Shown here piece by piece: positions 1-62,941 of a DNA stretch of 62,941 nt (its first letter is position 1; each line of letters opens with the position of its first letter). This stretch comes from a virus. Both the position numbers and the translations under genes were made by a program. The DNA lies in the IMG/VR virus record IMGVR_UViG_3300030098_002385, positions 1-62,941 of that record. One strand, given 5' to 3'. The notes under the pieces were generated by a model. The model made no database searches. It saw only the letters and a list, made by a program, of their open reading frames with translations, and was not told where the DNA came from.

Positions 1-100
1 GTGTTTGAAGCCTTACATAAATGGACTATGTTTGTTGGTCTTGGTTTGAATTTTACTGCAGCAGTAGGTAATATTGCTATTGGTAAATACAATACCTTTA
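1..100. repeat. Terminal redundancy, left copy (circular assembly)
   Basis: Bases 1-100 are repeated at 62842-62941. The only difference is at base 99 (T here, C at 62940), which leaves a Phe codon unchanged. The repeat lies inside one continuous reading frame, so it is best explained as assembly overlap of a circular or circularly permuted genome rather than a true terminal repeat. Confidence 0.93.
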
Positions 101-2917: not shown

Positions 2918-2932
2918 TAAAAAAATAAAATT

Positions 2933-39426: not shown

Positions 39427-40083
39427 ATGAACGGACAAGCTGGAAAACGTGTAAGTGTAAAACGAGTAGTTGCTAATGTTATTAGGAACATGGACATACC
39501 TGATGCTTCTAGAAACTTTAATGCCTTTGCGGAATGGGCCTTTGAAGCAGAAAGAAAAATAGGAAGTTATAAAACTTTTGTTAAAAAAACAGAAACATTA
39601 ACTATAACAAATAAACAAGCAGCTTTACCTGATGATTTTTTAAGTATAATAGATGTTAAAAAAGGTGGTAGTAATAATAATGATTATTTAGAACAAAGCT
39701 CTGCTACTTTTCCTTCTGATGTAGATAAACAAAATATGTTTTATTTTACAGAGGATACTTTAAATGTTTCTACAAATGACATTGGTTCTGTAACTATAGT
39801 TTATTACGCCGTAGATACAGATGACGAAGGATACCCTACGATTGCAGCAAACCATGAAGATGCTGTATCTGCATATTTAATGTACAAGTATAAGGCGAGA
39901 GATTATTGGAACGGTAAGTTACAAAGATATATTTATGTTGATTTAGAAAGAAATTGGTCTAGGTTGTGCGCCCAAGCAAGAGGAAATGACAATATGCCTA
40001 GTCCATCAGAAATGAAAAAAGCAGCTCAAATATGGAACACTTTGATTCCTATCAAGTCTAACAATGGATTACTTAATGTATAA
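39427..40083 (+). CDS. Tail-tube/ring adaptor (T7 gp11-like or crAss-like ring)
   Basis: 218 aa. Ile-Gly-Ser-Tyr-Lys-Thr-Phe, Ala-Ala-Leu-Pro-Asp-Asp-Phe-Leu-Ser-Ile and His-Glu-Asp-Ala-Val-Ser-Ala-Tyr-Leu-Met-Tyr-Lys-Tyr-Lys then Gln-Ala-Arg-Gly match the tail-adaptor plan of short-tailed phages. It overlaps the tail gene that follows by one base. It joins the portal complex to the nozzle. Confidence 0.75.
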   Translation: MNGQAGKRVSVKRVVANVIRNMDIPDASRNFNAFAEWAFEAERKIGSYKTFVKKTETLTITNKQAALPDDFLSIIDVKKGGSNNNDYLEQSSATFPSDVDKQNMFYFTEDTLNVSTNDIGSVTIVYYAVDTDDEGYPTIAANHEDAVSAYLMYKYKARDYWNGKLQRYIYVDLERNWSRLCAQARGNDNMPSPSEMKKAAQIWNTLIPIKSNNGLLNV

Positions 40084-46000: not shown

Positions 46001-46058
46001 AAATGAAAAGTTTAATATATTCTCCGCAGTTCCTTTCTTTAGGGCTTCAAGAATTTAA
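40083..46058 (+). CDS. Giant tail nozzle / stabilisation-type protein
   Basis: 1,991 aa. It starts with Lys-Gly-Met-Lys-Ser-Asp-Leu-Glu ... Asp-Ser-Tyr-Arg-Tyr-Ala-Lys-Asn-Ala-Arg-Val, a feature of crAss-like stabilisation proteins and related to T7 gp12 nozzles. The rest is beta-rich with many Asn/Gly/Pro turns. It probably forms the tail tube tip and contacts the host. At about 2,000 residues it is one of the two dominant proteins of the virion. Confidence 0.8.
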   Translation: MPTKGKPNTFFKGMKSDLEKSMQSKDSYRYAKNARVTSLDGDNVSVQPYPSDRLALTFRGESSFVNGVQTLSYTQAWTQGETVINTIGDVLNEMNYQWPPQYSSLEDLWGPIEIPGEFTQFIAGNDNPVSVTIELVTVDGNTIEITEDITTAYLLTNQMNVPFDVDNLVAGIINESQNGILATATVNGNIGNSQTTTNWVFINTEDSSDYVSSFSVTVTGTGSYSIANQDLMQQGLIASLPPVPVPTGNGIEEIIAYNLALAFQQALVTSIVNALTDYYNTLAQTPINSTVINGAELSPTGLSVFEQVAESIGFSPSQPGIQVLGTYSFSDQLIILAKWPLMGALQAEAGSPIACDMVIKVRQAADGTLNGNGLDGFGDFIPFDELGTLYTIYFTGNLEFTLGKKIKITGSEESGKTRRIYFTDGLFPLKTMNVGLDPILYTPYFNTPEYFNIFAPAVFAPTKVTGFLEGGNLSSKAYSYGFKYKTVDGRTSKLSPLSNPASLPKTSSSTEGPFIKGAKSEESTGKTMTGEIRNLDTRYAKIQLIFVPYENNAPAGPGIIFNEYPVPSVNDNDDENVVFWSHTGTEEPIGEVPLAELNDNQVSWDTCQALETKDNRLFVGNLSNSIESIDTDFRVVSYNKENQPHNVDTGNPHLYNDLLYSTAGVIVNPENQQALPVEQITEAYLGAYVDEYIVEGTNFVPMFRYIKGPTNNSALYNGELLGVQQQRGIFGAQSKGFDEPNDDGELEGIRVTFRILSEESSDGTFPIDLDRDSRLIQSSGIKALPPYYNLPAGQNNYYNNYSNPLYNSNYVGYRRGEIYRFGLLFYDKLGAPMFIKPIGDIRMPEHSAEYVTPIYNPTSENGEITGFKHEWPYYYQTARSAKDRGFQNIGDYINKEGVKGCVLYPYFEVKLSSATTSKIGGYSVVRVPRDSINRSIVTSGIFSRAIAYKNDSFGNSELDGKLGNSTFPLWTELRQKQDYRRFNGEGDNASRVYTLDSPDVCSDGDFVYNFSSSDRIKLTESGFCLKQNVRLIDANGETDTEGIQKFLSIDLADHLYNPSDINQNLPAYTLQPKSLNLFSCVVSKDKLNNSPVQFNEQEYETGTWNYKFSDDAQNYYDFEDDGIFQNIIGNDYNNYGFSSQYDLVSNDDNVEKHVGYFTKYYSKRISCYPQYVMRDTTVGTGGEFNDSVGTGVGFNIASQQQALRLPYVNLSNPDAPNSFNINNPNISEFFAFNNSEGLQPGQFFETKIHYAQILNPEQEINSGNIPGNSPSFRNAHHFHELYPPTQTNFDKRQANDQESQNDYFQKANRAYAHNSKTIGIVLEKPGGMPVVRQNLAANNYSEGITRRIGVSKAGGEGNPGGNFSPEVTIASIVRAQSKETMYGGFTEGDFSRNIFQSTGQFRPVVFNFQNPGDAVGQNNVGENGNAVFGGDTYIGYHKLKKTFKPSSGTNGEDESCVLFASMVPLETNFNLELRHGWNYSNNSDSIPRFIEDEYLYNESFDSENNGLAYKTKPIDFEEVNHWPSMIAFSEQKIPGEVDDNYSIFPVNQIKDLDYEKGPITQMFMLSNEMYALQYYGTSRLSINPRVLIQAEDGNAIQAQTGTDNILERYDYISEVYGSQHFHGLAVSDKAAYFYDDDNCKFLRLGRGEKGKFGVMSLGENSFMQNYFNQNKNRTLNDNPLTIRTYTNEALPPSPTYDINKLLIYQGIQEEDLGGVSIGFDPEHSEVLLTTMFSDKGVYLPPETIVFNENLGAFTSFISKAAGHYFNHHGRLYNVYNKYSTNVDDASSLNNGLDEIYMSNGYEEFPNSELDSFPAKFLNFGDVDYYIWEQDTEQQGVLPVYKEPFEIEMVINDAPTESKIFDKIQLSMNSETLEGTRYIYFRKFAFEGSANTAPIIQNDTNILGENYSSIDNLEPGGNRNWYTVRDNLHFAPMRSLNGLEVNQGGKTRGTYATVRMTMGWAIDNEHPSGYDRIKNEKFNIFSAVPFFRASRI

Positions 46059-46069
46059 AAAAAATAAAA

Positions 46070-47653
46070 ATGGCAAACGGTAACGACAAAGATAAAAAAT
46101 CAAAAAAGTATAAAGTAAAAAAAGGTGACACTTTATCACAGTTAGCAGAAGAATACGGCATGACTGTTGAGGATATTTTAAAACTAAATCCACAGTATGA
46201 AAATAATCCAGATTTAATAATACCTGGTGAAGAAATACAATTAAATATGGGTAATTTAGATTCTGCTAAAGAAGCCCTTAATACATTTATTGATAGCGCA
46301 AAAGATATTTTAAAGGGTGATAAAAAATTAGAAGATACTAAGTTAGGTCAATTTTTTGGAAAAGGAAAAGAATTTAAAGACACTAAGCTAGGAACTGCAC
46401 TAGGAGGTGGAAAGTCATTTGAAGAAACTGGTGTAGGTCAGTTATTAGGTGGTGGTAAACCATTTAAGGACACTAAGGTTGGAGATTTTATTACATCAAA
46501 AACACCTCTTATTGGAGAGACCCCATTAATCTTTGGACCTAACAGTAAATCTAAAATAAAAAAATTTGCAAAGAATTTGGCTGGAAAAGATTTTTACACT
46601 ATGAACTCTTCCGAGTTTGGGCCAGATACAGAATTTACTGTAAGTAATAAAAGAACTAAACTTAAGGGTCCAGAAGGCTCTAGAGTTGTTACGGGTTCTG
46701 AAAAAGAAGAAATAGATAATCTTCTTAAAACTGCTTTTCCTACACAAAAAAGGGGAGGGGGTTTATTAAAGAAATATGATGATGGTGGTATATTTGGAGA
46801 TGTTGCTAGTTTTTTCTCAGACTTTAAAGAAACAGGTGTTGGTGAATATTTAACTAGTGATGAGGGAAAAGAAGATATTGCTGGTTTGCAAAGTTTTGCA
46901 GGAGATATGCAAAATATGGGACAAGCTAAAAAGGGAGAAACTGAAAAAGAAAGATTAGAGAGGTTAGCAGAAAAGTCTGATGCTGGAGATGTATTTAATT
47001 ATGCTGTTGATATGGGTGATGCTGGTGTTGATTTAATATCTGGCGATATTCCAGGAGCTGTTCTTAAATTTGGAAAAACTTTATTTGAAGGGTTTAAAAA
47101 GAAAAAAATGAGAAAAGACGCTAGAAAAGAATTAAAAGAAATTGGAAAACAAGAAGACATAATGGTAGACAACCCTATGGGTTCTGATTTTTCAACAGAA
47201 GTTTTAGCTCAAGAGCAACCAGTAGATGTTCCAGAAGAAGGCCTTATGTACTCTATGGCTAGAGGGGGAATGATAAGCCCAGATGTTATGCCATTCTTAT
47301 CAGACTCTTATAAGAGATATTTATCTCAACAATATGGCGCAGGAGGAAATGTAAGAACAAGGGTTCCTTCTAAAAACAAAAGAAGACCAGAGTATTTAAA
47401 ATACGCACTAAAAGGTGGAGGTATGGTTAAAGGACCAAGCCACGAAAAAGGAGGTGTTAAGTTTAATGTTGGTGGAGAGGTAGTTGAGTTAGAAGGGGGT
47501 GAAGCTGTTATAAACAAAAAGTCTACAGAAATGTTTAGACCTATTTTGTCTAAAATGAATCAAGCAGGAGGTGGTGTTAGCTTTGCTAGAGGTGGTATAG
47601 TAAACCCAAATGTTCAGAAAATGGTAAACAGATTAATGCGTAAAAGTAGATAA
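46070..47653 (+). CDS. LysM-containing virion protein with tandem Gly-Lys repeats
   Basis: 527 aa. Residues about 12-58 are a LysM domain (Tyr-Lys-Val-Lys-Lys-Gly-Asp-Thr-Leu-Ser-Gln-Leu ... Leu-Asn-Pro ... Pro-Gly-Glu), which binds peptidoglycan. Residues about 85-145 hold four tandem units of about 16 residues of the form Phe-(Lys/Glu)-(Asp/Glu)-Thr-(Lys/Gly)-x-Gly. The rest has four Gly-Gly-(Met/Ile) units and a Pro-Ser-His-Glu-Lys-Gly-Gly-Val segment. It likely helps cross the cell wall during DNA entry. Confidence 0.75.
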   Translation: MANGNDKDKKSKKYKVKKGDTLSQLAEEYGMTVEDILKLNPQYENNPDLIIPGEEIQLNMGNLDSAKEALNTFIDSAKDILKGDKKLEDTKLGQFFGKGKEFKDTKLGTALGGGKSFEETGVGQLLGGGKPFKDTKVGDFITSKTPLIGETPLIFGPNSKSKIKKFAKNLAGKDFYTMNSSEFGPDTEFTVSNKRTKLKGPEGSRVVTGSEKEEIDNLLKTAFPTQKRGGGLLKKYDDGGIFGDVASFFSDFKETGVGEYLTSDEGKEDIAGLQSFAGDMQNMGQAKKGETEKERLERLAEKSDAGDVFNYAVDMGDAGVDLISGDIPGAVLKFGKTLFEGFKKKKMRKDARKELKEIGKQEDIMVDNPMGSDFSTEVLAQEQPVDVPEEGLMYSMARGGMISPDVMPFLSDSYKRYLSQQYGAGGNVRTRVPSKNKRRPEYLKYALKGGGMVKGPSHEKGGVKFNVGGEVVELEGGEAVINKKSTEMFRPILSKMNQAGGGVSFARGGIVNPNVQKMVNRLMRKSR

Positions 47654-47654
47654 T

Positions 47655-49958
47655 ATGCCTGAAGATAAAAATAAAATAGATTATAATAATCGTTTAATAA
47701 ATAAAAAAATAGATGATTTTTTCTCTCTTTCTGGAGGAAGAGAATATCAAAAATCTGTACTGAGCAAAGAAGAAAAAGCTGAATTAAAAGAAGAAATAAA
47801 TATTGCTACTACTGCTATTTTAGAAGAAATATATGACGCCCCTTATCCAGATAAAGATGACCCAAATAGAGAAGAAAAATTAAAAAAATACGAATACTTA
47901 ACTTCTGATAATTCTCCTAGGAAAAATACAGAAGAATTTAATAAATATTTTTACCAACAACTAAAAGAAAAATTAGAATTAGATAAATATGATGTAACTA
48001 ATGTAGAACAATCTCAAAAGTTAAATGCAATAGCATTACATGTTTCTAGAGTTCTTGACGACTATGACGCTAGAGTTAACACCACAAATGAATGGGTTTT
48101 AGATTCTAGAGGTGATATTCAAGGAAATTTTAAAAATCCTAAAACAGGTCTCTATCAGGCAACGAATACAAAAACTCTTGATGGTAAGACAGGAGTAACG
48201 AACGCATACCGTAATGTAGACAACGGACCAGCAGCTATTGCAATTCGTTTAGGAGCAAGTCCTACAGGTAATTTTAGCCAAGAGCAATTAAAGGCTTTTA
48301 AGGATGACCCTGATATTGGTAAACATATTTATTCAGAGTTTATAGCGTCTACTGGTGAGACTTATTATTGGTTTGGAGAGCATGAAGGTGACCAAGAGTT
48401 TGAAGGTGTAAAATATATTTTTTCAGGGTCTAAATTTGTGCCAAGTTTAATTATTGATAATGAAAATTATACACTCCCTACAGGAGGCTCAAACATAAAA
48501 GAGATGACAGAAGATGGACATCCATCAAAACCCACAGGTAGTCCACAATCTGGTAGAAAACCAAAATTACTTACACACCAGCTTGTTATATCAAATCTAT
48601 ATGATGACATGAAAGTTGAGGAACCTAAACCTCAAGTGGGTGACTACTTTAAAGCTTTAGGTCCAAATAGAGATGATACAGGAAAAAACGCTACTGTTTA
48701 TTACTATGGTAAAGATGGGGTTGAGGCCTTTAGTAATATAGCTGAATTACAAATTCACATGAAACAAAATCATCCAGAGTTACTTAAGGATGTAAATTTA
48801 ATAAAAGAAGGTGAGCCCGCATCAACATATTCGGAGGTAATGGATGCTAACAAAACTTTTCTAGCAGATAATTTTGTTGATTTAGCTATTAAAGACTTTG
48901 ATTTAGAAAATTTTGAACAAGAAGAGAAAGATGTTTTAAATACTGTATATGAATCTAAAGTAAATCCTGAAACAGAAACAGGGGTCTCATCTATAACTGG
49001 AGGCTATCTAGACCAAGGTGAATATGTAAGTGAAGATTATGACCCTAAAGGAGATGAGTCTGGTTATACAGGTAAGGCTAAAAAAGTTAAAAAACCTGGA
49101 GTTTATTTTGACGCTAAGGACCCTAAAACATTTTCATGGCAGTATGAAAAAGTAAACGAAGATGGAACAACATATTATGAAACTGCACCTATAGGAGATT
49201 TTGAAGTAGATGAAAATGCTTATAAAAAATTTGAAGAAACCCTAACTACCCCTCCTCCTCCTGATGGTAATAAAAAACCAGCAAATTCAGATGCTAATAA
49301 AGATAAAAGGATGGGTGAAGAGTTAGGAAGTGTAGTTACAGCATTAAAAGCTGGAGCTGGGATAATTGGCTTAGGTAAGGCTATGAAAGATATACCTATA
49401 GGGGAAAACCAAGAACTGTCTGATTCTTTTAAAGCTTATATGCAAAAGTCTAAAGAGTTGTCAGAAAGTGGTTTGACTGCTGCAGAAAAAGCTTCTATAA
49501 GAACTGATTTATCTAATGCATATACCTTAGGTGCTAAAAATGTTTTAAGAGCTTCTGGTGGAAACAGGGGAACTTTTTTATCTAATATGGGTATGTTAAA
49601 TACAAATAGAGTTAATGCATTAATAAAGATGGGAGAAATAGATGCAAAAATGCAGAGACAAAATATGGAAGCTTACGGAAAAATGCTTACCTTTCAAGAA
49701 AAGTTTAAAGCAGAACAAGGCGCTATAGGGAGAGAAATGGCATACAAAGAATCTTTAAGGAAATCAAATTTATATGGTGGCTTAGGCTCGTCATTAATAG
49801 GTAGTGCTATTAGTGATTTAACATACGCCCAACAAATGAAACAAATGGAACCATATATGAATGAGTGGGCAAGAAACATGGGACTTACAACAACAGCAAC
49901 AAATACAGGTAGTGACGCTGACGATGATGCGGCATTATTTGTAAATACAGAAAGTTAA
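47655..49958 (+). CDS. Ejection/internal virion protein, T7 gp14-like position
   Basis: 767 aa. The N-half is soluble with charged helices and Pro-rich loops. The C-half has a hydrophobic patch near residue 575, then Gly-Ala-Lys-Asn-Val-Leu-Arg-Ala-Ser-Gly-Gly-Asn-Arg-Gly-Thr-Phe-Leu and a glycine-rich Gly-Gly-Leu-Gly-Ser-Ser-Leu-Ile-Gly segment. These are features of ejection proteins that insert into the outer membrane. It stands first of the soluble trio before the giant gene. Confidence 0.65.
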   Translation: MPEDKNKIDYNNRLINKKIDDFFSLSGGREYQKSVLSKEEKAELKEEINIATTAILEEIYDAPYPDKDDPNREEKLKKYEYLTSDNSPRKNTEEFNKYFYQQLKEKLELDKYDVTNVEQSQKLNAIALHVSRVLDDYDARVNTTNEWVLDSRGDIQGNFKNPKTGLYQATNTKTLDGKTGVTNAYRNVDNGPAAIAIRLGASPTGNFSQEQLKAFKDDPDIGKHIYSEFIASTGETYYWFGEHEGDQEFEGVKYIFSGSKFVPSLIIDNENYTLPTGGSNIKEMTEDGHPSKPTGSPQSGRKPKLLTHQLVISNLYDDMKVEEPKPQVGDYFKALGPNRDDTGKNATVYYYGKDGVEAFSNIAELQIHMKQNHPELLKDVNLIKEGEPASTYSEVMDANKTFLADNFVDLAIKDFDLENFEQEEKDVLNTVYESKVNPETETGVSSITGGYLDQGEYVSEDYDPKGDESGYTGKAKKVKKPGVYFDAKDPKTFSWQYEKVNEDGTTYYETAPIGDFEVDENAYKKFEETLTTPPPPDGNKKPANSDANKDKRMGEELGSVVTALKAGAGIIGLGKAMKDIPIGENQELSDSFKAYMQKSKELSESGLTAAEKASIRTDLSNAYTLGAKNVLRASGGNRGTFLSNMGMLNTNRVNALIKMGEIDAKMQRQNMEAYGKMLTFQEKFKAEQGAIGREMAYKESLRKSNLYGGLGSSLIGSAISDLTYAQQMKQMEPYMNEWARNMGLTTTATNTGSDADDDAALFVNTES

Positions 49959-49959
49959 T

Positions 49960-51798
49960 ATGGCACAAGATTATTTAAATATTATAGGTAATTGGAACTC
50001 AATGGCTCAACAAGGGAGAGAGAGAGCTAATGCCGCGATGGAAACTAAGTTAAAAACATTTGAGCTACAAGCTAAGAATCAAATGTTACAAAAACAAAAT
50101 GAAGAAGCTGCTGAAGCTAGGATAGCTAATATAACACAGCAAGCAGAATATTTATCTAAGTTTTATAGACCAGGTGATTTGGAAAAAATGCAAACTATAG
50201 AACAAGATGCTAAAGCAAAGTTAAAGGAGCAACTTAATATGTACAATGATGATATAGTTGCTTTTATGAGGGGAGGTGGAAGACAGTACATAAATGAATA
50301 TAGAGACTCTATTTTAAATAGTGAAGAAGCTCAAATAATAAGAAACAATCACAGTTCTCTTGTTAAGTATTTAGACCAGTCTGATGAAGATGCAACTTTA
50401 ATATCTAATAGAGATAGAGAAAATTACCTTAAATGGAAAGTTGGTGACATAGATTCTTTTACTTGGAGTGGTTCATACATGAAGTTACTTACTCCCACTG
50501 AAGAAGAATTTCAAAATGCTAACAGTCCAGCAGAAGCTTATTTAAACAAAGCCAATCCAAATGGTGAAGATAATTACAGTAGAGTTTTGCATAACTATTT
50601 AATAGACACAGGGATACAGTTTGGTGCAGATGGTAGGGGTCCTGAAGAATATTATCAAGAGTTATTAATTTATCAAAACAGCCAACTTAGACCAGACCAA
50701 ATAAGTACAGCTAAGAAAAGCTTATCAGAGTCACAAGCTTCTAAGAAAAGTTATAGTAGTAATATACAATCTATATTTAATTCTATAAATGGTGGTTATC
50801 AAGGTAACTTTGATGGATTCTGGTCAGACCCAGCTAATAATTCGGCTTTAATTAATTTAGAAAACTTAACTTGGATTCAACCTTACAATGTTGAAAGTGG
50901 AAGAAACAAAAGATTATATGGTCAACAAATATTAGGAGGAGAAGAAATGGCTATAGCAAAAGAGTTTTTCCCTAATATGGAAAATGGTAAAGTAGACTTT
51001 GATGATTTAACAGCTATGCAATCAAACCTTGGTGCTGGTGGTGTATATGATGAAGATGGATATCTTATACCTCCTGGCGTAGAAGATGATAATGATGCCT
51101 GGTTTAATCCTAATGACAATTGGAGTGTTAACGCTCTTGAATTAATGTTTGAGGTTAAATTAGATGACGGTAAAACAAAATTAATGTCAATAGAAGATTT
51201 AGATGAAAATGAAAATCTTAGAGATAGAAACAAAACTGCTGTTATGGTTATGTCTTTTAGTGAGAATGATGGCTATCAACTAGGTCTTAATCCAGATGAC
51301 TTTAGATACATGAAGTTAAATCTTGAGTCTCCTAGGGTGGCGCAAAAAATAGATAAGGTTTTAGGAAAGGTTGAATACACTGCTAAACAAAATGTAGCTA
51401 ATGCTCCTAAGACTTATAGATATGTTCCAGGTGAAAGATTTGATTATCTACCAGAAAATGTAAATGCTTTAGTTCCATCTTTAGACCCATATGTAGGTCA
51501 AATTTTAGGAACTGAAAACATGTCAGAAGATGATTTAAATGCCAGCTCTTTATTAATGGCTACAGCTATGTTAAACCATGAGCAACAAAACCCTTACCAA
51601 GTCCTTAAAGACTTTATGGGTACAACAGACCCTGATGAAAAGTCTTTAATTGATGCTCTAAAAAACTATGACTATGATGCTTATTACAATATATTAAGCC
51701 AACAAGGAGCCACTGAAAGAGATTTAAGAGAGTTAGCTGTTAATACAGAAAGAATTAGAATGGGATATTTATTATATGGAGAAAGAAAAGAGAATTAA
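49960..51798 (+). CDS. Ejection/internal virion protein, T7 gp15-like position
   Basis: 612 aa, helical and charged, with a Gln/Ala/Lys-rich coiled N-terminus (Met-Glu-Thr-Lys-Leu-Lys-Thr-Phe-Glu-Leu). No membrane helix. It lies between the gp14-like gene and the giant gene, as gp15 does before gp16 in T7. It probably forms the periplasmic part of the ejection conduit. Confidence 0.62.
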   Translation: MAQDYLNIIGNWNSMAQQGRERANAAMETKLKTFELQAKNQMLQKQNEEAAEARIANITQQAEYLSKFYRPGDLEKMQTIEQDAKAKLKEQLNMYNDDIVAFMRGGGRQYINEYRDSILNSEEAQIIRNNHSSLVKYLDQSDEDATLISNRDRENYLKWKVGDIDSFTWSGSYMKLLTPTEEEFQNANSPAEAYLNKANPNGEDNYSRVLHNYLIDTGIQFGADGRGPEEYYQELLIYQNSQLRPDQISTAKKSLSESQASKKSYSSNIQSIFNSINGGYQGNFDGFWSDPANNSALINLENLTWIQPYNVESGRNKRLYGQQILGGEEMAIAKEFFPNMENGKVDFDDLTAMQSNLGAGGVYDEDGYLIPPGVEDDNDAWFNPNDNWSVNALELMFEVKLDDGKTKLMSIEDLDENENLRDRNKTAVMVMSFSENDGYQLGLNPDDFRYMKLNLESPRVAQKIDKVLGKVEYTAKQNVANAPKTYRYVPGERFDYLPENVNALVPSLDPYVGQILGTENMSEDDLNASSLLMATAMLNHEQQNPYQVLKDFMGTTDPDEKSLIDALKNYDYDAYYNILSQQGATERDLRELAVNTERIRMGYLLYGERKEN

Positions 51799-51804
51799 TA
51801 ACTT

Positions 51805-54800
51805 ATGTCTATATTTAAAAAAATACTAAGAGAGTCAAAATCTATAGGCGTTGATACACCAAGCGAGGGGGTGGAATTATACGACAAGGGATTGCAAACA
51901 GAAACATCATCGCCTGATGTAAATGTTTCTAATGTGCCTACACAAAACTTTGCTGCACCAAGAGAACAACAGACATATGGTTTTGTTGATAAATCTGCTT
52001 TTGGTGCACCCCCACAAGAACCTCAGCCTTATATGGGATACACAGAAGGTCAAGCTTTTATGAAAGAATATGAGCAAAGAACTAATGTGTTAGACTTTAT
52101 GGAGCTTCCTCAAGAAGCTGGAGAGATAGCTAAAACTGCAGCTTATAATTCTAGCATATCTGTTAGAGATTACTCTGTAGCTGGAGAATTCTTAAGAAGT
52201 TTTGCTGCTGGTACTGGACAAGTTTTAATTGGGTTTGCTGATACTATAGATTGGCTTAATTCAACATCAACAAACTTAACAAGTTATGCTTATAAAAAGG
52301 GTCTTGAGTCTGCTGGATATGAAGGGGATGTAGCAGATTATGCATCAAAACAACTTGGAGATGTTGCTCCCACTCCTCTTGGTGCAGCCTCTTTAGATTT
52401 TGGCCCACTACTTGGGGTAGATATGGACCTTTCTTTTACTGGGGCCTTAAGAAGCTTAGGTGAAGAAATGGAAAGCTGGGACGATAAAATAGATATGTCT
52501 GGATTAGAAGAAGGTTCTTATAAACAATTACTTAATCCTAAGTTTTACTATACTAAGTTAGTTAAACAAATTCCTAACTTATTAACCTTTTTAATACCAG
52601 CTTCAGGTGGAGCTAAGGTGGCTAGAGGATTGGCGAACTCTACTAAATTTGGTAAAGCCACTGTATTTAGTTCAGACAAATTAACAAAAAATATTAAATA
52701 TTTTGGTAATAAAGGTGGGGGTAATGCTTCTAGATTAGTTATTAAAGGAGAAGATGTTGCTCAGTTTTTTGGAGGAGCAATAGGAGGTAACTTTGCTGAA
52801 GGAGCCATGCTTGCTGGTCAAAGTTATAGAGACGCATTAAAAGGTGGAGCAACAAAAGACCAAGCAGCAATGGCTGGATGGAATGTAATGAAAGACAATG
52901 CTAAATGGATAATTGTAGATGGTCTTCAATATAGTATATTAACAAAAGGTGTTGGCGCAATAGGTAGTAAATTAAAACTTAAATCAGGTGTTAACTTTAA
53001 AAATGCAGCTTCAGACCTTTTAATAGGCTCTGGTGTTGTTGTCAGTGATGGTAAACTTGAAGAGTTACAAGAGGTTTATCAAGACTGGAGAGTTAATAAA
53101 AGAGTGGCTGAGGCAACAGGAGAAGATTATGATGTTGGTTATTGGGAGTATTATAATAGTCCAGAAGTTGCAGACACAAGGGTTATATCTTTTGCTATGG
53201 GAAGTATTGGTGGTGGTGCTGGTGTTGTTTATAATGCATTTAAAGATGGTATTAATATTGCTGCAGAAAGAAACTTTGCTTTAGATGAAAAGATAGAAAG
53301 CACCCTTTTAACTGATGATACTGGCTCTTCAATGGTATTTGCTAAAGCCGCTGAAATAGTAAGACAAAAAGGTTTTCAAAGCGGTATAGATAGCAAAGCA
53401 GAATCAGAAATACATAAACACGAACAATACAAACAAGACCTTATTGCTAATATAATAGGTAATGGAGAGAAAGACCTTGGTAAAGCTAACATAGAAAAAG
53501 AAGTTGCAGCAGGTAGAATAACTGAAAAAGAAGGAAAACATTTAATTGAGACAATGGACTCTATGGCAGATTCTTTTTCTCAAATGGGTTTTGCTCCAAA
53601 ATCTTTATCACCACTAAGCCCTAGGGGTAGACAACAATTAGTTAAGTTATCCCATGTAATGAGACACTCTAGAGAAGAGCTAGCTGATAGTAATGATTTT
53701 TATGAATCACAAATACAAGGATGGGAAAGTAAAAGAGAACAGCCTGAGTATAAAAACAGAAAAGATTTTATTGACGCTCAAATAGAATCTATAAAACAAG
53801 AACAACTTCAAACCAATCAGGCTTACCAACAAGACATTGAAGGTATTACAGGCGCTATGCAAGAGGTGTTTACTTTAGAGCAGCAAAATGTAATAAACCA
53901 AAAAGAAGCTTTAAGTGCTAAGCAGGCTGGAATGAGAGAAACTATGGCTAGAGAAAAAGAGGTCACTACACCAACTGCTGTTGAACAAGCTCCTGCTACT
54001 GAGACTAAAGCAAAGGGGACTAGAGAAAGTTTTACAAAAGCATCAGAAGTTTTTATGAAAGAGACTAATGATAAAAAAACATTAGACTCTGTAAAAAGAA
54101 TTAATAAAAAAGAATCTGCCCCTTTAACTAATAAAAAAAGTAGATTAAATAACAAGCAGTTAAAAGACGCTCTTAAGTTTTGGACAAACACGGGTAATGC
54201 TATTGCTCCTTTATTAAGACACGTAGCTAGTAAACAAATAGCTGGAGAAACTCTTACAAATCAAGAAATAGCTGTTTTATCAGAAAACACTAAAACCATT
54301 GAGCCTTTACTTCAAGAGCATAAGAAAAGAGAAGGTGCTAAAAAAAGAATAACAGAGATAGACCAAGAGATAAAAAAAATTAAAGAAGGTAAGCAACCAT
54401 TAGGTAAGATAGTTCCTACTAAAGCTCCTTTAAAAATGGAAGGGCGTATTAATAAGAGAGAAATATATAAGGGCAAACAAAAGGGTGATGATGTTACAGT
54501 TATGATTAGCTATGATGAAAAGGGTAATGTAATTGATAGTCAAGTAATTGAAAGAAATGGTAAAGATGATAGACTTCTTATAGAAGTAAATAAAGGAAAA
54601 AATGAAAGCATGTCAGATGCTTTAAACAGGTCTCTTGACTCTGCATCTAATTTAAAAGAAAACTTTACTTTATCTGAATCAATAACAGATGTTAATAGAC
54701 TATATTCTAAAAGGGCAATAGAAAAATATGGTTTTGTTAGGGAGGGAGATACTGGAACTGATACAATTAAAACTCTTGAAAAAGAAAAAGCAGAATTACA

Positions 54801-57800
54801 AAACACATCATTAAAACTAGGTTCTGTAGGTAAAGTAGAAAAAGCTATGTCTGGTAAGCCAGCAGAAAGAAATATAGCACAGGAAAAGGTTATCATAAAA
54901 ATGCTCAGGAAAAAAGGTATTAATCCTGTTGTGGCTGACTATATGTTTAGAACAGACGATTCTAAAAAATATTATGGTATGGCTCAAGGTTTAAGTATTT
55001 ATTTAAACAGCAATACTGCTACACAAGAAACTATATTCCATGAGCTTAATCACATCTATGTAAATGAAATGTGGTATGAAACAAATAAAGATGGTACATA
55101 TAAAGTAGATAGCAAAGGAAATAGGGTAGTTAATCCTATAATAAAAGAAGCTATTGAGTTAGTTGTTAACCAACCTTTGTTTAAAAAGAAGATGTCTAAC
55201 CCTAGTTACACTAATCAATTATTGTTACAAGACTCTAATGGTGTAGTAAAAACTCTTAATGACTTAATAAAGTTTGACGGCATCCTAAGTTTTACTGCTT
55301 GGGCAAAACAAACAGATAGTGCAGATAAATCAATAAATGGTTATTTAGAATACTTAAAACCAGAAGCAAAGAAGTTAGGCTTTACTTTATTGCCAGATGT
55401 AGAACAAAGAATTATTCTTGAAGAGGTAATAGTAGACCTTATGTCTAAAACAGAAGCTCAAGAAACTAATGGGGATATATTAAAAAAAGATGATAAGAAA
55501 AGAGATAATATAGCTAAAAGGTTTTATTCTAAGATAAAAAGTAGGTTTACTAAAAAAGAATCTAAGACTATACTAGAGAACACTGGTAATGCAGAGCTTA
55601 CTAAACTAGACAATGTTATTGACACCCTCATAAAAGACTCTAGAAAAGAAAGACCTGCTTATAATATAAGAAGAGATAGACTGGGTAGTGATAAAATGTT
55701 TCACGTAGAAGACTTAAACTCTACTATGTTAACTAATCAAATATCCTCAGACATATTAGGTTATTTAGAAACCTTAAAACAAGAGTCTAAATTAGATAAT
55801 AAACTACAAGGTCCTTTATATAGAACTAAAGATGGAATGTTAACTGTAGCTGGTAAAAAATCTGTGTCTACTTTTATATCTGAAAACAGACAAGAAGTAA
55901 ACTCTTTTATAAAAGAATTATACCCAGAAGGTAGCAATGAATTAAATCACTACAACAACAATAGAAATGATATTTTAAATACAGCCTTTAAAGTACTTGC
56001 TTTTAGTAATGCTCAAAAAAGTATTGGTTCAACAGAACAAGAATTAGAAGAAGATGAGTACAATTTATTTGACTTTGACAACAGAAATGGGGTAAACGAA
56101 AAGATAGGTAAAGATATATCTTCTTATATTAAGTTAGGAGAAAGTGTACAGGGTATACCTGTAACACACGGACAGATAAAGTCATCCTTGTACAACAAAA
56201 TTTTTAAATATAGAAACAACCCTAAAAGTTTTGAGCAAGAAATTAATGATAACATAAGAGCGTTAACTTTGTCTCCTAAGCTTTTAAGTAGAGAAGAAGA
56301 GTTGTTAGCTAGATACTTTGTTTATATGAATGAGGTGTATGCATCAGAAGGTATGAGTTTAGCTAGTCCAATCTTAGATTACCACCATGAGTTTTCTTCT
56401 TATAAACAAATAAACTTTCATAATATAAATGTATTTAAAAATAAGAAAGGAGAAGTTATAACAAACATTAAACAAACATTTGGTGTAGATGCTAGCACTA
56501 TAAAAACAGATATAGAAAAAAGATTTAGACAGTCTATAACTGTTGATAAACCTAAAGATAGTAAAACATTAAGCTCACAAGAAATCAGTAAAATAAAATT
56601 TTTATCTTCTATTATTACTTTGAGTGATTCGTTAAAGGAAGCAAAGAATCCTAGTGAATCTAAGAAAGCTGTTATTAAGTTTTTAACAGATAATTATTTA
56701 AGTGAATATAAGGACGATATAAATGTAGACTTAATAAGTAAAGACTTTGTTGATAAGTTTGTAACTAAAGATAAGGAAACAAACAAAACCTTGGTTGACC
56801 AATTAATAGAAGACCATGGTATGATTGAAACTTATAAATTAAATGGCAAAAAAGCTGGTTGGCAAGCTGGTTTTAGCGCTGAAAGATTTAACAAAGAAAG
56901 TGTTAAAGCTTGGAGAGCTTGGGAATCAAGTGAAAAAACACAACAAGCTTTACAAGATGAGCTTATATCCAAAGAAGATATCATTAGTATAGGTAAGTTG
57001 ATTAGAAGGTCTGGGGTTATTAAAGAGGGTAATATCAATACTCAAGCTAGAGTTTTCTTAAATGCAGATGGCACTATACAGCTTCATCAGGGTGGTGGTC
57101 TAAAATTCTCTAATAGATACAAGGCTCAAAATATTATTACACAATACTTATCATCAGAGATAGCTCTTGGTGATTTTTCTTCTCAAATACTTACACCTGA
57201 AGGTAATAAGAAAAACTTTATATCTAAAAGACATCAAGCAGATGTTTTGGTAGAAGAACAACTACCATCTATGAGTGACGAAGAAATAAAAGATATGTTT
57301 GGTGACAATGTGTACACTAATAACTATATACTTAATAGAGAAGAAAAGATTAATGTAGCTCAAATAAATGGTTCGGTTGTGCTTGGTAAGGGTATAGACT
57401 CAGGTAATGAAACTGCTAATGAAAAAACAATACTAGAGGTTAGCTTAATAGCTCAAGCTATAGTTAATGGTAATGAAACATATAGTCAGTCAGTATCTAT
57501 TGTGGCTGATAAAGACATAAACCTTCATGTTACTAACACTAAATTGTTAACACTAGAAGAGGCTAGGGCTATTAAAGATAAGCTTAATCAAGATGGCGTT
57601 AAGTTTACAAATGGAGACGCATATTTTAATTTTACAGACGCTGATATACAAAGAGATGTAAAAGGTTTACAAAGAATAATTAAAGGTTCGAAAGACACTT
57701 CTTTGAAGTCTTTAGCTAAAAACACTAAAGCTTTAGAACAAATAGTCCTAAACAATGCTATAAACAAATATTATGCCAAAGACCTTTTAATTGGTAAGGC

Positions 57801-60800
57801 AGAATATTTTAAAAATAATGACGACTATATAAAAAGAGCAGCGGGTTCTGTTGCTATGAATGTAAATCACGGAAGAAGATTTGAACCCTTGATGTTAAAA
57901 GATGAAACATTAACCATAAAAGATAAAGATGGTAAGTCAAGAAAGATTAACAGAACAGATGCTCCGTCGTTTATTTTACCAGAGGACTCTCAAATAGTTG
58001 GTGCTAGTTATGGGGGTAGAAGAAATGTAGGTAATCACCATAAGTTTGTTTACTATGGACAAAACGTAGATAACAAAACATTTGAGGGTGTGGTGGGCAA
58101 GCGATACCCTTTTTATTTAAAGACTAATACATTTGTGTTATCTAATTCATTTTTAGAATTAAACCCTAATTTAAAACCTATTGCTGAAGCATTAAAATTA
58201 AGAAAAAAAGAAGGAGTGATTCCTATGGCCGCTTTTAGCTCTGCAATGAAAGTTCAATCTAATAAGTTTAAAAATCAATTAATTGACATGAACAAATTAG
58301 TTGAGTTAAATAAAGATGGTGGCTTTGCTTTAAATGAACATCAAGATAGGTTATTTAAATACAAGGACCTTAATGGTTTAGATGGAAAATATTTAGGCGT
58401 TCAAACAGAATTAGATAGAAAGCACACTACATCAATAGTAAGTAAACAACTTATTTTAAATTTACTATCTAATCCAGAAACACAATCTGAAGGTTTAGCT
58501 GTGTTAGAGAGCTTAGAGATATTTTCTAAAAAAGAGTTAAGTAAATTTTCTAAGTTCATGTCTGGGAATGGTGAGGTTAGTGTAGAGGCTGTTAATGAAT
58601 TAAGAGAGGAGTTAATAAAAGAAACAGATGTAGATATATACGGAGAATCTGCAATGGCTTTATTAAAAGATGGTAGTTACGACAGTGGTTCTGTAGAGAT
58701 ATTAAGAAGTAAAATAATATCTATTGTTAAGAAAAGGTTATTAAGAATTAGAACTCCACAGGGTTCTGGTACTGTTGGTTACCAAACAACAGACTTTGGT
58801 TATGGAACAGAGATAGAAACAGGAGATATATCTGAATCTGCTGGACTACAAAGTTATTTTGATAAAGAAGGTAAACCAAGGTTAGATGAAAATGGAAACC
58901 TTGAGCCTGCAGAAGTTGCTTTAGATGCAAGTTTAGGTTTTAAAGAGGGAGATAAGATTATATTAACTAGAATACCTAACTCTAAAATGGGAGATAACAT
59001 ACCAGCTGTTGTTACATCTGTATTTAGAGGAACTGGTAGTGTTGTACAAATACCTTCAGACCTATCTGATATTATAGGTTCTGATATGGACGGAGACTCT
59101 TTACATATAATGGGTAGGTCTAAACAGGCTAAACAATACAATGATTCGTTTGATAAGATGTTTAACTTCCTTACCCTTTCTGCTAATATCGAACACATGC
59201 AAGAAGCTGTTGACTTTGAATCATTTGCAGATGGCGCAGAAAGAGCTCTTGTAAAAGCTGGATTAAAACCTATAGAGGCAACCATAAATGATTTAAGCTT
59301 TTTAGGTGACAACCTTAAGTATCGTTCTAACATAATGGGTAGAGGTAATATAGGTACATCAGCTTCTATTAATACTTTCCATAAGATATTAAGCACGCAT
59401 AATGTTCAGGTTCCTGATTTAAAAGTTAATGTAGGTAAGAATGCTTTACAAAGTAGTTACAAAGATAATAACAATGCGTGGATTTCTTTAGCTCGTATAT
59501 TAAACATATTCTTAGATGAAGCAAATAAAGGTAGGGGAGCTAGATTAAACATGAATTCTGTAACAGTAGGTCCACTAACAGAGCTTGTTATGAGAGGTAT
59601 TTCTTTTAATGATGCTGTAGTATTAATTAACTCTCCATTTATGAAAAGAGCAGTGTCTGCTTTTCAAAACAATGGAACCACCTTAAATGAGTTTATAAAA
59701 AATGAAGTAAATGGAGAAGTAAAAGAGCTTAGTGAGGTTTCTGATATAGATATTAGTAAAGTTGCAGATGGTAGTCAAGATGTTGCAATTAGAAATCTTT
59801 TTTACAACTTCAATAAATACAACTCACCTTCTTGGACTTTAAGAAAACTAATTAACTTAGAGAGCTTTATACCTGAAACACACACAGAACAGAAACAACT
59901 ATTGAAAGATATTGTTTCTTTAATGAAGAATAGAAACATAAATGTTGCAGGCTTAGTTACCTCTATTAAGACCCCTAAAGAACTAAATGAACTTATAGAC
60001 AAAGGTCAATACACAACCTTTGTTAACTCTTTAAATATTAAAAACCCTATCTTAAGAAGAAATGTAAATGCTCTTGCTGCAAGTTCTAAAATGCTTGAGG
60101 TAATGGACCCAGCAAACTCTCAGGGTTATAATAACATTGTAGAGAAATACAAAAAAGAAAACATTAAACAAGTAGAAAGCTTAGTTCGTTCTTGGAGATT
60201 AGCTCAAGACGGTTCGTATCAAATTAATTTAGACGCTATGCCTAGGGTACTTCAAGACTCTCAAGACTTTATAGACTCTTATGGTTCTATGTCTTCTATT
60301 AAGACAATACTTAAGCAAGACTTAGAACAAATAGAGGTAGCTAAACACCCATTTATAAACAAGTATTTTAAAATACAAGAGACTAAAGAAAGTAACTTTA
60401 TAACAAGAAAAGATAAAAAAGGTTCTTCTACTCCTGTTGAGGTCTCTAAACAAGATGGTGAGTATGTGTTTACACCAACTAACTTAGTAAAGAAAAAGTC
60501 TACTAGTAAAAATCTAGTTCCTACTAGCGCTTTAAGAAATGCAAACGCAAAACAAGTTGCCAAAGACTTTGATGCTTTACCAAGATATGTACAAGACTAT
60601 TTATTATTATGGGATTTAGTAATGAATAATCATAGTGGTCCTAATGCTATACTACCATACTTAGGTAGTCGTACAAATAAGATATCTAAAAAAAGCCAGT
60701 CTCACGTTAAAAAACAAAGACCTAAATTTCTTTCAGAAGCTTATAGAAAACAAGTAGAAGATTATGTAAACTTTAACATAAGACAAGAAGCTGAACCATT

Positions 60801-62941
60801 AAGTGTAGAAAACAATGGAACAGTAACATCTGAAAATGGTGTATTGACTGTGCAAAAAGGTCTTAGTAACATACCAAGTGGTTCTGTTAAATCTATAGAA
60901 CTGTCTAATGGCGTAACAGCTATATATAAAGTTAGTCAAATAGAAGGGGGTTCTACAGTTTTATATCCTATTGAAGCTAGCTTTACACACGATTCGTTAC
61001 TACCAAGTGAGTCTAGCTTACTTGAACATAATACAGATATAGAGTATATAAACTCTGCAGAGGAGGTTCAAGTAGAAGATGATGTTAATGTTGAAGGTCT
61101 TAAAGAAGAAGGTTACGAATACTCTCATGTTGATTTAGATACAGGTAATAAAATATATGTAAAGAAAGAGGGTGATATATACAAAGCAAAAGAAGTTATA
61201 AATGGAGATAAGATAGTAGACTATAACGGTAAGTTTGCGTCTAAATATATGTACATGTCTAAGGATATGTCAGATTATTTAGACTTCCAAAGAGAAATGA
61301 CTTTCCAACAATATGTTAACAAGGGTAAAACAAAACTAGTAGACGCATCTCTTTTAGGTGAAAAAGAACGAAAATTTCTTTTAGAACAACATGAAAAATA
61401 TAAACAAGATTTACGTACAGCTAACGAACTTTCTGCTAAATACTTATCACCTAATGAATTTGGTGTATTAGAAATAGAGTCAGATAAATACACTGCCTTA
61501 CAGTTAGAGCAAATAATAAAAAATGAACTTAGACCTTTAGACACTGAGGCTAGAGCTAAGGTTTATCAAGCCTTCCTTAAAGTGCTTGGGGCTAAAATTG
61601 GTTTAGAGGCTGTTAATGATAACTTAAGTAAGGCAAAGAAAAATAGATTAGGAGAAAAATTGATATCTGAATTAGAGGCAGCTAAAGCAAAATACAGAAA
61701 CCCTGATTCTTTAAGAGAAGATGTTGGTAGGGGTGATATGTATTTAAATCCAGATATAACTAGCCCTGAAAGAGCTGAGGTTGGCGCTGTTCTTAATAGA
61801 CTTAGTGAATCTGAAATATCTTATCAACAAGATATGGCTAAGTTAAATAAGAAAATGGACACAGCTTTTCAAGCTTTATTAAAAAAGAAACTTAGTAAAG
61901 TACAGCGTTTATTATATAGATTTGGACCAGCTGTTATTAAATACTACTATAACAGAAAGTTATTTGAAAACATAACTTTTGTACAAGAAGAATTAACTCC
62001 AGATAATGAATATGTAAAAAGACATTTAAGATTAAAGAATGATAAAGAAATAGCTGCTATAAAAGATAAACTTACACAAGAAGAGTTAGCTTATAGAGAG
62101 ATGTTTATGGAGATGACTGGAATGGTTAAGAATCATTTAAATCAAAAGATAGGTGAAGATGGTAATATTGTTTTACCAAAAGAACAGGATAAAGGAAAGA
62201 CTTATGTTCCCCATTTAACTGCTTCTATAACAGAAATGGCTCTTGCTAGAAACCTTGTGGCCTCTTATATAATGCACAATTACTCTCATAAACTAAAAGA
62301 TGTTTATGTGCTAGAAGAAGGTAAAACAGAAGCAAGACCTTTGGGTGAGATTATCAATGAATATATGGCAAGACAAGCTAATAAAAGAACAAGTAAATCA
62401 GATATTGCCGTAAGAAGAGAGTTAAGGAAACTAATTAAACAAGCAAATCAATATGTAGAAAAAGGTACAGATGCTATAGGTAACCCTATTGTTACAGCAG
62501 ATGACACTTCAAACATAACTCAACCAGAGGTTATAGATAGATATTTAAGTCAGCGTTCTTTTAATTCTGGCTTTGGTGCAACCATTGATTTACACAGGTC
62601 GTTAACTACATATGTAAATAAAATGGTATTTAACTATGGGTTAGATAGTCAAGAGGGCTTTAAACACCAAGGTATTATAGAACAAATACCTGCTATTGAT
62701 GCTGCCATATCTTATGCTTCTTTTAAGAACAACCCGAATGCTCAAAAATGGATTAAAGAATTACTACTAGAAAAGTATGCTAGAAAAACTGGTAGAAAGT
62801 CTTTATTTGGAAAAGACGGAAAAAGACATTGGTCAGATGATGTGTTTGAAGCCTTACATAAATGGACTATGTTTGTTGGTCTTGGTTTGAATTTTACTGC
62901 AGCAGTAGGTAATATTGCTATTGGTAAATACAATACCTTCA
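51805..62941 (+). CDS. Giant 4,044-aa ejected protein with zincin and RNA-polymerase-like motifs (N-terminal 3,712 residues; ends at 1098)
   Basis: The frame opens at ATG 51805 and I followed it in the lines checked without a stop to the window end, then to 1098 across the circular join (12,135 bases, about 19% of the genome). Residues about 170-420 are Gly/Ala-rich and hydrophobic, suiting membrane passage. Residues 1079-1083 are His-Glu-Leu-Asn-His, a zinc-protease signature, with a downstream Glu-Glu-Val-Ile-Val-Asp (1206-1211) as possible third ligand. Residues 2386-2391 (Ile-Leu-Thr-Arg-Ile-Pro) and 2426-2432 (Ser-Asp-Met-Asp-Gly-Asp-Ser; D2427, D2429, D2431) match the active-site barrel of RNA polymerase beta-prime. 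Ser-Ala-Met-Lys-Val (Lys 2149) may be part of the second barrel. It resembles the virion RNA polymerase of crAss-like phages fused to a gp16-type ejection protein. Confidence 0.85.
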   Translation, partial: MSIFKKILRESKSIGVDTPSEGVELYDKGLQTETSSPDVNVSNVPTQNFAAPREQQTYGFVDKSAFGAPPQEPQPYMGYTEGQAFMKEYEQRTNVLDFMELPQEAGEIAKTAAYNSSISVRDYSVAGEFLRSFAAGTGQVLIGFADTIDWLNSTSTNLTSYAYKKGLESAGYEGDVADYASKQLGDVAPTPLGAASLDFGPLLGVDMDLSFTGALRSLGEEMESWDDKIDMSGLEEGSYKQLLNPKFYYTKLVKQIPNLLTFLIPASGGAKVARGLANSTKFGKATVFSSDKLTKNIKYFGNKGGGNASRLVIKGEDVAQFFGGAIGGNFAEGAMLAGQSYRDALKGGATKDQAAMAGWNVMKDNAKWIIVDGLQYSILTKGVGAIGSKLKLKSGVNFKNAASDLLIGSGVVVSDGKLEELQEVYQDWRVNKRVAEATGEDYDVGYWEYYNSPEVADTRVISFAMGSIGGGAGVVYNAFKDGINIAAERNFALDEKIESTLLTDDTGSSMVFAKAAEIVRQKGFQSGIDSKAESEIHKHEQYKQDLIANIIGNGEKDLGKANIEKEVAAGRITEKEGKHLIETMDSMADSFSQMGFAPKSLSPLSPRGRQQLVKLSHVMRHSREELADSNDFYESQIQGWESKREQPEYKNRKDFIDAQIESIKQEQLQTNQAYQQDIEGITGAMQEVFTLEQQNVINQKEALSAKQAGMRETMAREKEVTTPTAVEQAPATETKAKGTRESFTKASEVFMKETNDKKTLDSVKRINKKESAPLTNKKSRLNNKQLKDALKFWTNTGNAIAPLLRHVASKQIAGETLTNQEIAVLSENTKTIEPLLQEHKKREGAKKRITEIDQEIKKIKEGKQPLGKIVPTKAPLKMEGRINKREIYKGKQKGDDVTVMISYDEKGNVIDSQVIERNGKDDRLLIEVNKGKNESMSDALNRSLDSASNLKENFTLSESITDVNRLYSKRAIEKYGFVREGDTGTDTIKTLEKEKAELQNTSLKLGSVGKVEKAMSGKPAERNIAQEKVIIKMLRKKGINPVVADYMFRTDDSKKYYGMAQGLSIYLNSNTATQETIFHELNHIYVNEMWYETNKDGTYKVDSKGNRVVNPIIKEAIELVVNQPLFKKKMSNPSYTNQLLLQDSNGVVKTLNDLIKFDGILSFTAWAKQTDSADKSINGYLEYLKPEAKKLGFTLLPDVEQRIILEEVIVDLMSKTEAQETNGDILKKDDKKRDNIAKRFYSKIKSRFTKKESKTILENTGNAELTKLDNVIDTLIKDSRKERPAYNIRRDRLGSDKMFHVEDLNSTMLTNQISSDILGYLETLKQESKLDNKLQGPLYRTKDGMLTVAGKKSVSTFISENRQEVNSFIKELYPEGSNELNHYNNNRNDILNTAFKVLAFSNAQKSIGSTEQELEEDEYNLFDFDNRNGVNEKIGKDISSYIKLGESVQGIPVTHGQIKSSLYNKIFKYRNNPKSFEQEINDNIRALTLSPKLLSREEELLARYFVYMNEVYASEGMSLASPILDYHHEFSSYKQINFHNINVFKNKKGEVITNIKQTFGVDASTIKTDIEKRFRQSITVDKPKDSKTLSSQEISKIKFLSSIITLSDSLKEAKNPSESKKAVIKFLTDNYLSEYKDDINVDLISKDFVDKFVTKDKETNKTLVDQLIEDHGMIETYKLNGKKAGWQAGFSAERFNKESVKAWRAWESSEKTQQALQDELISKEDIISIGKLIRRSGVIKEGNINTQARVFLNADGTIQLHQGGGLKFSNRYKAQNIITQYLSSEIALGDFSSQILTPEGNKKNFISKRHQADVLVEEQLPSMSDEEIKDMFGDNVYTNNYILNREEKINVAQINGSVVLGKGIDSGNETANEKTILEVSLIAQAIVNGNETYSQSVSIVADKDINLHVTNTKLLTLEEARAIKDKLNQDGVKFTNGDAYFNFTDADIQRDVKGLQRIIKGSKDTSLKSLAKNTKALEQIVLNNAINKYYAKDLLIGKAEYFKNNDDYIKRAAGSVAMNVNHGRRFEPLMLKDETLTIKDKDGKSRKINRTDAPSFILPEDSQIVGASYGGRRNVGNHHKFVYYGQNVDNKTFEGVVGKRYPFYLKTNTFVLSNSFLELNPNLKPIAEALKLRKKEGVIPMAAFSSAMKVQSNKFKNQLIDMNKLVELNKDGGFALNEHQDRLFKYKDLNGLDGKYLGVQTELDRKHTTSIVSKQLILNLLSNPETQSEGLAVLESLEIFSKKELSKFSKFMSGNGEVSVEAVNELREELIKETDVDIYGESAMALLKDGSYDSGSVEILRSKIISIVKKRLLRIRTPQGSGTVGYQTTDFGYGTEIETGDISESAGLQSYFDKEGKPRLDENGNLEPAEVALDASLGFKEGDKIILTRIPNSKMGDNIPAVVTSVFRGTGSVVQIPSDLSDIIGSDMDGDSLHIMGRSKQAKQYNDSFDKMFNFLTLSANIEHMQEAVDFESFADGAERALVKAGLKPIEATINDLSFLGDNLKYRSNIMGRGNIGTSASINTFHKILSTHNVQVPDLKVNVGKNALQSSYKDNNNAWISLARILNIFLDEANKGRGARLNMNSVTVGPLTELVMRGISFNDAVVLINSPFMKRAVSAFQNNGTTLNEFIKNEVNGEVKELSEVSDIDISKVADGSQDVAIRNLFYNFNKYNSPSWTLRKLINLESFIPETHTEQKQLLKDIVSLMKNRNINVAGLVTSIKTPKELNELIDKGQYTTFVNSLNIKNPILRRNVNALAASSKMLEVMDPANSQGYNNIVEKYKKENIKQVESLVRSWRLAQDGSYQINLDAMPRVLQDSQDFIDSYGSMSSIKTILKQDLEQIEVAKHPFINKYFKIQETKESNFITRKDKKGSSTPVEVSKQDGEYVFTPTNLVKKKSTSKNLVPTSALRNANAKQVAKDFDALPRYVQDYLLLWDLVMNNHSGPNAILPYLGSRTNKISKKSQSHVKKQRPKFLSEAYRKQVEDYVNFNIRQEAEPLSVENNGTVTSENGVLTVQKGLSNIPSGSVKSIELSNGVTAIYKVSQIEGGSTVLYPIEASFTHDSLLPSESSLLEHNTDIEYINSAEEVQVEDDVNVEGLKEEGYEYSHVDLDTGNKIYVKKEGDIYKAKEVINGDKIVDYNGKFASKYMYMSKDMSDYLDFQREMTFQQYVNKGKTKLVDASLLGEKERKFLLEQHEKYKQDLRTANELSAKYLSPNEFGVLEIESDKYTALQLEQIIKNELRPLDTEARAKVYQAFLKVLGAKIGLEAVNDNLSKAKKNRLGEKLISELEAAKAKYRNPDSLREDVGRGDMYLNPDITSPERAEVGAVLNRLSESEISYQQDMAKLNKKMDTAFQALLKKKLSKVQRLLYRFGPAVIKYYYNRKLFENITFVQEELTPDNEYVKRHLRLKNDKEIAAIKDKLTQEELAYREMFMEMTGMVKNHLNQKIGEDGNIVLPKEQDKGKTYVPHLTASITEMALARNLVASYIMHNYSHKLKDVYVLEEGKTEARPLGEIINEYMARQANKRTSKSDIAVRRELRKLIKQANQYVEKGTDAIGNPIVTADDTSNITQPEVIDRYLSQRSFNSGFGATIDLHRSLTTYVNKMVFNYGLDSQEGFKHQGIIEQIPAIDAAISYASFKNNPNAQKWIKELLLEKYARKTGRKSLFGKDGKRHWSDDVFEALHKWTMFVGLGLNFTAAVGNIAIGKYNTF
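62842..62941. repeat. Terminal redundancy, right copy (circular assembly)
   Basis: Identical to bases 1-100 except C at 62940 in place of T at 99. The codon remains Phe. The single difference may reflect mixed strains in the sample. Confidence 0.93.

Follow-up and report, generated by a model that had tools for sequence, protein, structure and literature searches.

What is made from a single gene that takes up 19.3% of a viral genome? The window (the whole stretch of 62,941 nucleotides analysed here) holds such a gene, which the initial annotation, putting its share at about a fifth, had read as a fusion of a gp16-type ejection protein, a zinc protease motif, and an RNA polymerase active site. 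Profile comparisons and structure modeling indicate, with a probability of about 0.9, that a small crAss-like phage uses it to make, in one chain, the RNA polymerase that it packages in the virion and ejects. Reading from the N- to the C-terminus, the order would be a region like gp67 of phage phi14:2, a zincin-like HExxH region, a two-barrel polymerase, and a gp65/gp49-like region.

An intact gene across the circular junction

The giant gene and its motifs were confirmed as genuine, in the form first described. The circular genome measures 62,841 bp, and the final 100 nucleotides of the window (62842..62941) copy its first 100 with one mismatch, a direct repeat attributed to assembly overlap in a circular or terminally redundant genome. 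Joined at this end repeat, the frame runs uninterrupted for 4,044 codons on the plus strand (as do all window features below unless noted). Codons 1-3679 occupy 51805..62841, beginning with the ATG at 51805, and residues 3680-4044 with the stop occupy 1..1098, the last codon ending at 1095 and the stop lying at 1096-1098. The predicted product has a mass of 454 kDa. An independent contig, L113, with about 95% identity, spans the junction without interruption, and the join is therefore real.

HELNH lies at residues 1079-1083 (55039-55053), ILTRIP begins at residue 2386, and SDMDGDS spans residues 2426-2432. In shuffles of the same composition, HExxH is expected 0.046 times per protein (about 5%) and DxDGD 0.056 times, while the compound pattern R[IVLM]P-x30-40-G[SA]DxDxD occurred in none of 3,000 shuffles. 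Each of the 26 non-redundant complete relatives has both HExxH and DxDGD at matching positions, except that one carries HEFTGH in place of HExxH. This variant, with one residue inserted, was seen in the 3,983-aa relatives of contigs L178 and L181.

The phage and its clade

All four Crassvirales markers (capsid, muzzle, portal, and terminase) are present in the window. The capsid protein matched Pfam Crass_capsid (E 6e-36), the 1,991-aa muzzle protein (40083..46058) matched Pfam crAss_MUZ (E 6e-116), which places the phage with the crassviruses, and the portal and TerL matched the corresponding PHROGs (E 3e-119 and 2e-87). Portal identity was below about 30% to every annotated crAss-like phage among the matches listed, and in a portal tree the window clade stood well apart from the sampled members, on long branches. 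Portal and polymerase searches of IMG/VR yielded many relatives. The polymerase profile matched 14 of the 21 portal-found records, in most cases inside an open frame of 3,400-4,150 aa, and the seven unmatched records were incomplete contigs (17-44 kb). Contigs of the window clade reach about 62-68 kb at the longest, and the crAss-like phages of this clade share the fused giant gene.

Between the muzzle gene and the giant gene lie three genes (46070..51798) encoding proteins of 527 aa with a LysM domain, 767 aa, and 612 aa. They stand where crAss001 has the cargo genes gp45/gp46, and no homology to known cargo proteins was detectable; judged solely by position, their products are the likelier candidates for ejection-channel proteins. 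The LysM protein (46070-47653) directly follows the muzzle gene, and no relative of it was found among the open frames adjoining the giant gene in related contigs. Elsewhere in the window (18633-20880, minus strand), an amidoligase gene adjoins a class-II glutamine amidotransferase gene, and a similar pair occurs in phi14:2 (g040/g041).

A two-barrel RNA polymerase

Single-sequence searches of Pfam, PHROGs, PDB, and INPHARED with the giant protein returned no significant match, and a profile built from only four known crAss polymerases proved too weak. The empty Pfam, PHROGs, and PDB searches would suit a DMDGD that arose by chance in a plain structural or tape-measure-like protein, but that explanation is contradicted by the profile, fold, and invariance results that follow and is very improbable. 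A family profile of 36 sequences, covering residues 1700-2800 of the window protein (56902..60204), matched phi14:2 gp66 (PDB 6VR4) with an E-value of 6.6e-36. A profile restricted to 11 sequences of the window clade, with no classical crAss members, still matched 6vr4_A at E 4.2e-16. This was the only strong PDB profile match of the region, the next polymerase being P23-45 gp96 at E 0.06, and when profiles were compared with each other, three known crAss polymerases were matched at 99.7%.

The AlphaFold2 model of residues 1700-2800 (pLDDT 79.9, pTM 0.77) contains both double-psi barrels near DMDGD whose absence had been named as grounds for rejecting the assignment. Its best PDB match in Foldseek was 6VR4 (E 4e-24, TM 0.66), followed by QDE-1, itself a two-barrel polymerase, and the P23-45 RNA polymerase; because the TM-score over the model is 0.66, domain orientations may differ from those in 6VR4. 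The best fold matches among viral models were crAss-like giants, and phi14:2 gp66 was also matched. The model shows two barrels rather than the T7-type single-subunit fold of the N4-type virion polymerase. The strands of the first, beta-type barrel were assigned by DSSP to residues 2018-2149 (57856..58251), which include the conserved Lys2080, Lys2106, and Lys2149; Lys2106 and Lys2149 align with the phi14:2 sequences TYLK and VKVGA. The second, beta-prime-type barrel (residues 2322-2437; 58768..59115) carries Arg2389 and the predicted catalytic residues Asp2427, Asp2429, and Asp2431 (59083-59097), which align with Asp1361, Asp1363, and Asp1365 of phi14:2 gp66. Lys2080, Lys2149, Arg2389, Pro2391, Gly2425, and the three aspartates are among 18 positions that are invariant in the 36 sequences. 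Purifying selection is evident in the polymerase, where contig L113 differs by 86 synonymous and 29 amino-acid-changing codons. By profile, model, and invariant residues alike, the proposed RNA polymerase active site is right, and the region belongs to the crAss-like two-barrel virion-type polymerases of the phi14:2 gp66 family. Public records give misleading names, "exonuclease V" or "DNA helicase", to the giant polymerases of gut crAss phages (e.g., L012:16381-31221).

Counterparts of three virion proteins in one chain

Segment profiles built from the 26 non-redundant complete relatives were each set against individual known proteins, and reversed and block-shuffled versions served as controls. 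The polymerase segment matched phi14:2 gp66 and crAss001 gp50 at E ~1e-13. Residues 238-484 (52516..53256) aligned by hhalign with residues 154-403 of phi14:2 gp67 (E 1.2e-4, probability 55%; controls 0.098 or worse), and Glu419, Gln422, Glu423, Gln426, and Trp428 are invariant in this N-terminal region. At the other end, residues 3679-4034 aligned with residues 974-1399 of phi14:2 gp65 (E 2.3e-10; controls 0.068 or worse) and with residues 906-1329 of crAss001 gp49 (E 1.5e-7). In phi14:2, gp67, gp66, and gp65 are consecutive, abutting genes. Since the N-terminal, polymerase, and C-terminal segments match them in the same order, the giant gene is, on this sequence evidence, a single-chain version of the phi14:2 gp67-gp66-gp65 virion block. 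Mass spectrometry detected the crAss001 counterparts (gp47, gp49, and gp50) in virions (PMC10172136), and by analogy this strongly suggests that the window protein is also a virion protein.

The idea that the polymerase is joined to other virion proteins in one chain was upheld, but the gp16-type partner was not. Neither gp16 nor transglycosylase homology was found for 31 N-terminal regions (PHROGs, Pfam) or for their profile (PDB), no member's N-terminus matched an ejection family, and the sole relative found was phi14:2 gp67. An AlphaFold2 model of residues 151-1300 was poor (pLDDT 57), and Foldseek returned only noise with no fold match. Residues 501-1000 and 2750-3250 are poorly conserved. 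The 3,694-aa virion protein gp18 of Elemovirus, a 60-kb Flavobacterium phage (L008:34852-45936), was considered as a sister of the giant protein and rejected: despite the same gene position, it has neither the polymerase motif nor a significant profile match. It carries HEIFH at residue 1543.

The HExxH region

The zincin-like region was delimited to residues 1019-1268 (54859..55608). His1079, Glu1080, His1083, Tyr1135, Gln1201, Glu1206, and Glu1207 are invariant in 24 aligned sequences, the 23 others being about 15-39% identical to that of the window in this region. The Glu1206/Glu1207 pair would fit the third zinc ligand of a zincin with a glutamate ligand, and in the low-confidence model HExxH and the Glu pair both sit on helices. 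The zinc protease motif of the initial annotation is thus real and conserved together with the downstream Glu pair, but searches of the region against families, PDB profiles, and folds gave no match. Across the N-terminal and HExxH regions (51805-55764), amino-acid-changing codon differences from L113 outnumber silent ones, unlike in the polymerase; in the HExxH region, the counts are 33 and 23. These two regions change fast around fixed motifs.

Similar motifs occur in other crAss-like phages. HEAFH lies ~1,400-1,620 residues before DxDxD in cr118, cr272, L101, L103, L105, L110, and L111, compared with ~1,200-1,490 residues for HExxH in the window clade, and profile comparison places HExxH on HExxH, weakly (E 0.0014). 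In crAss001, HEAFH is found near the end of gp47, just ahead of where the separate polymerase chain would begin. Since the motif also occurs in cr118, cr272, other giants, and crAss001 gp47, the element is probably older than the fusion in the window clade. Phi14:2 has no HExxH before its polymerase and has HEIMH in gp65 instead.

How the region acts can be read in several ways. One possibility, short of probable, is that the chain is a polyprotein, in which the HExxH region, as an active metallopeptidase, releases gp67-, gp66-, and gp65-like parts either within the virion or following entry; the working polymerase would then match that of phages in which the genes are separate. The invariance of HExxH and Glu1206/Glu1207 within an otherwise fast-changing region favors cleavage of this kind, as does the position of HEAFH in crAss001, and the two poorly conserved stretches could hold the cut sites. 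However, no cut site is recognisable, the peptidase fold found no match, and HExxH persists in phages whose genes are already separate and which require no such cut, so that the target may be another. Self-cleavage of the chain is nonetheless plausible. The retention of HExxH in fused and separate versions alike would be accounted for if an active metallopeptidase were directed against the host envelope, a host defence, or a scaffold protein while the chain stayed whole. This reading, likewise a tentative one, gains from the unrelated N4 virion RNA polymerase, which has an HExxH in its C-terminal domain (PMC12633501), and is opposed by phi14:2, where the motif is missing from this place and one is present in gp65. 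That the HExxH helix is a non-catalytic structural relic would agree with the failure to match any fold or family, but the catalytic Glu and every presumptive ligand stay unchanged in sequences as divergent as these, and this explanation is improbable.

Comparison with known systems

In better-known crAss-like phages, the equivalent parts are divided between two or three virion proteins. A close likeness is to phi14:2, in which two barrels lie in one chain with RIP...GSDxDxD and the same region order is found, although it is spread over three abutting genes there rather than the one gene of the window. In crAss001, gp50 and gp49 match by profile, but the genes are separate, gp49/gp50 lie on the other strand, and the N-terminus of gp47 is not clearly matched to that of the window protein (E 0.025). 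The crAss001 cargo was identified in virions, whereas the window protein is known from metagenomic sequence alone. Partly fused giants are found in cr118_1 (gp14, 4,946 aa, with gp15), cr272_1 (gp23, 6,386 aa, with gp22), and Fpv2 (gp33, 4,401 aa), all with the polymerase fused to large regions. In cr118 and cr272, HExxH also lies upstream of DxDxD, but a further gene related to gp65 remains separate. The genomes of these partly fused crAss-like giants are 89-99 kb, compared with 63 kb for the window.

More distant systems show parallels. The 3,500-aa virion RNA polymerase of N4 (Schitoviridae) is likewise giant and ejected with an HExxH in the same chain, but it is an unrelated T7-type single-subunit enzyme, and its HExxH follows the polymerase rather than preceding it. 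In P23-45 gp96, a virion polymerase with two barrels is likewise joined to a second giant virion protein (PMC10770324); the partner there, however, is a long-tail tape measure, and similarity is weak (E 0.06-0.2).

Proposed mechanism and implications

Packaging, exit ahead of the DNA, and early transcription have been proposed for the crAss cargo (PMC10172136, PMC10136315). The frame of the window gene is intact, three of its four segments are homologous to and collinear with three discrete virion proteins from cultured phages, and the catalytic residues and fold of the polymerase are in place. By the same scheme, the chain would most likely be packaged in the capsid, thread its way down the tail in advance of the DNA, and refold in the host, where it would transcribe early genes. 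The N- and C-terminal regions may serve packaging or passage, the HExxH region may be a metallopeptidase that trims the chain, and fusion would fix a 1:1:1 stoichiometry and the order of exit. A bolder proposal, and a rather unlikely one at present, is that a single self-processing polyprotein constitutes the complete virion transcription machine, with a built-in zinc peptidase that frees the RNA polymerase after tail passage. If true, built-in peptidases would be a recurring way to eject giant enzymes, as the unrelated N4-type giant polymerases also carry HExxH.

Giant crAss polymerases of up to ~6,000 aa, as well as fusions to large proteins of unassigned function, have been published (PMC10136315, PMC7886860, PMC10770324). 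As far as the literature surveyed shows, what is new is that one gene carries the whole N-HExxH-polymerase-C fusion and that a clade of small crAss-like phages retains it throughout. The invariance of the HExxH/EE set also appears to be new, but may have been noted before, for example by Yutin 2018 or Drobysheva 2021; these founding papers aside, no description of a zinc protease in crAss polymerases was found in the literature surveyed.

These findings define a clade of crAss-like phages whose genomes are small (about 62-68 kb) and in which the machine has a compact form. Three crAss cargo proteins that are packaged separately elsewhere can be produced as a single chain and may also function that way, and this single-chain form limits models of how the cargo is arranged and ejected. 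The HExxH element stays beside the polymerase whether the genes are fused or split, and its role is directly testable by one point mutation.
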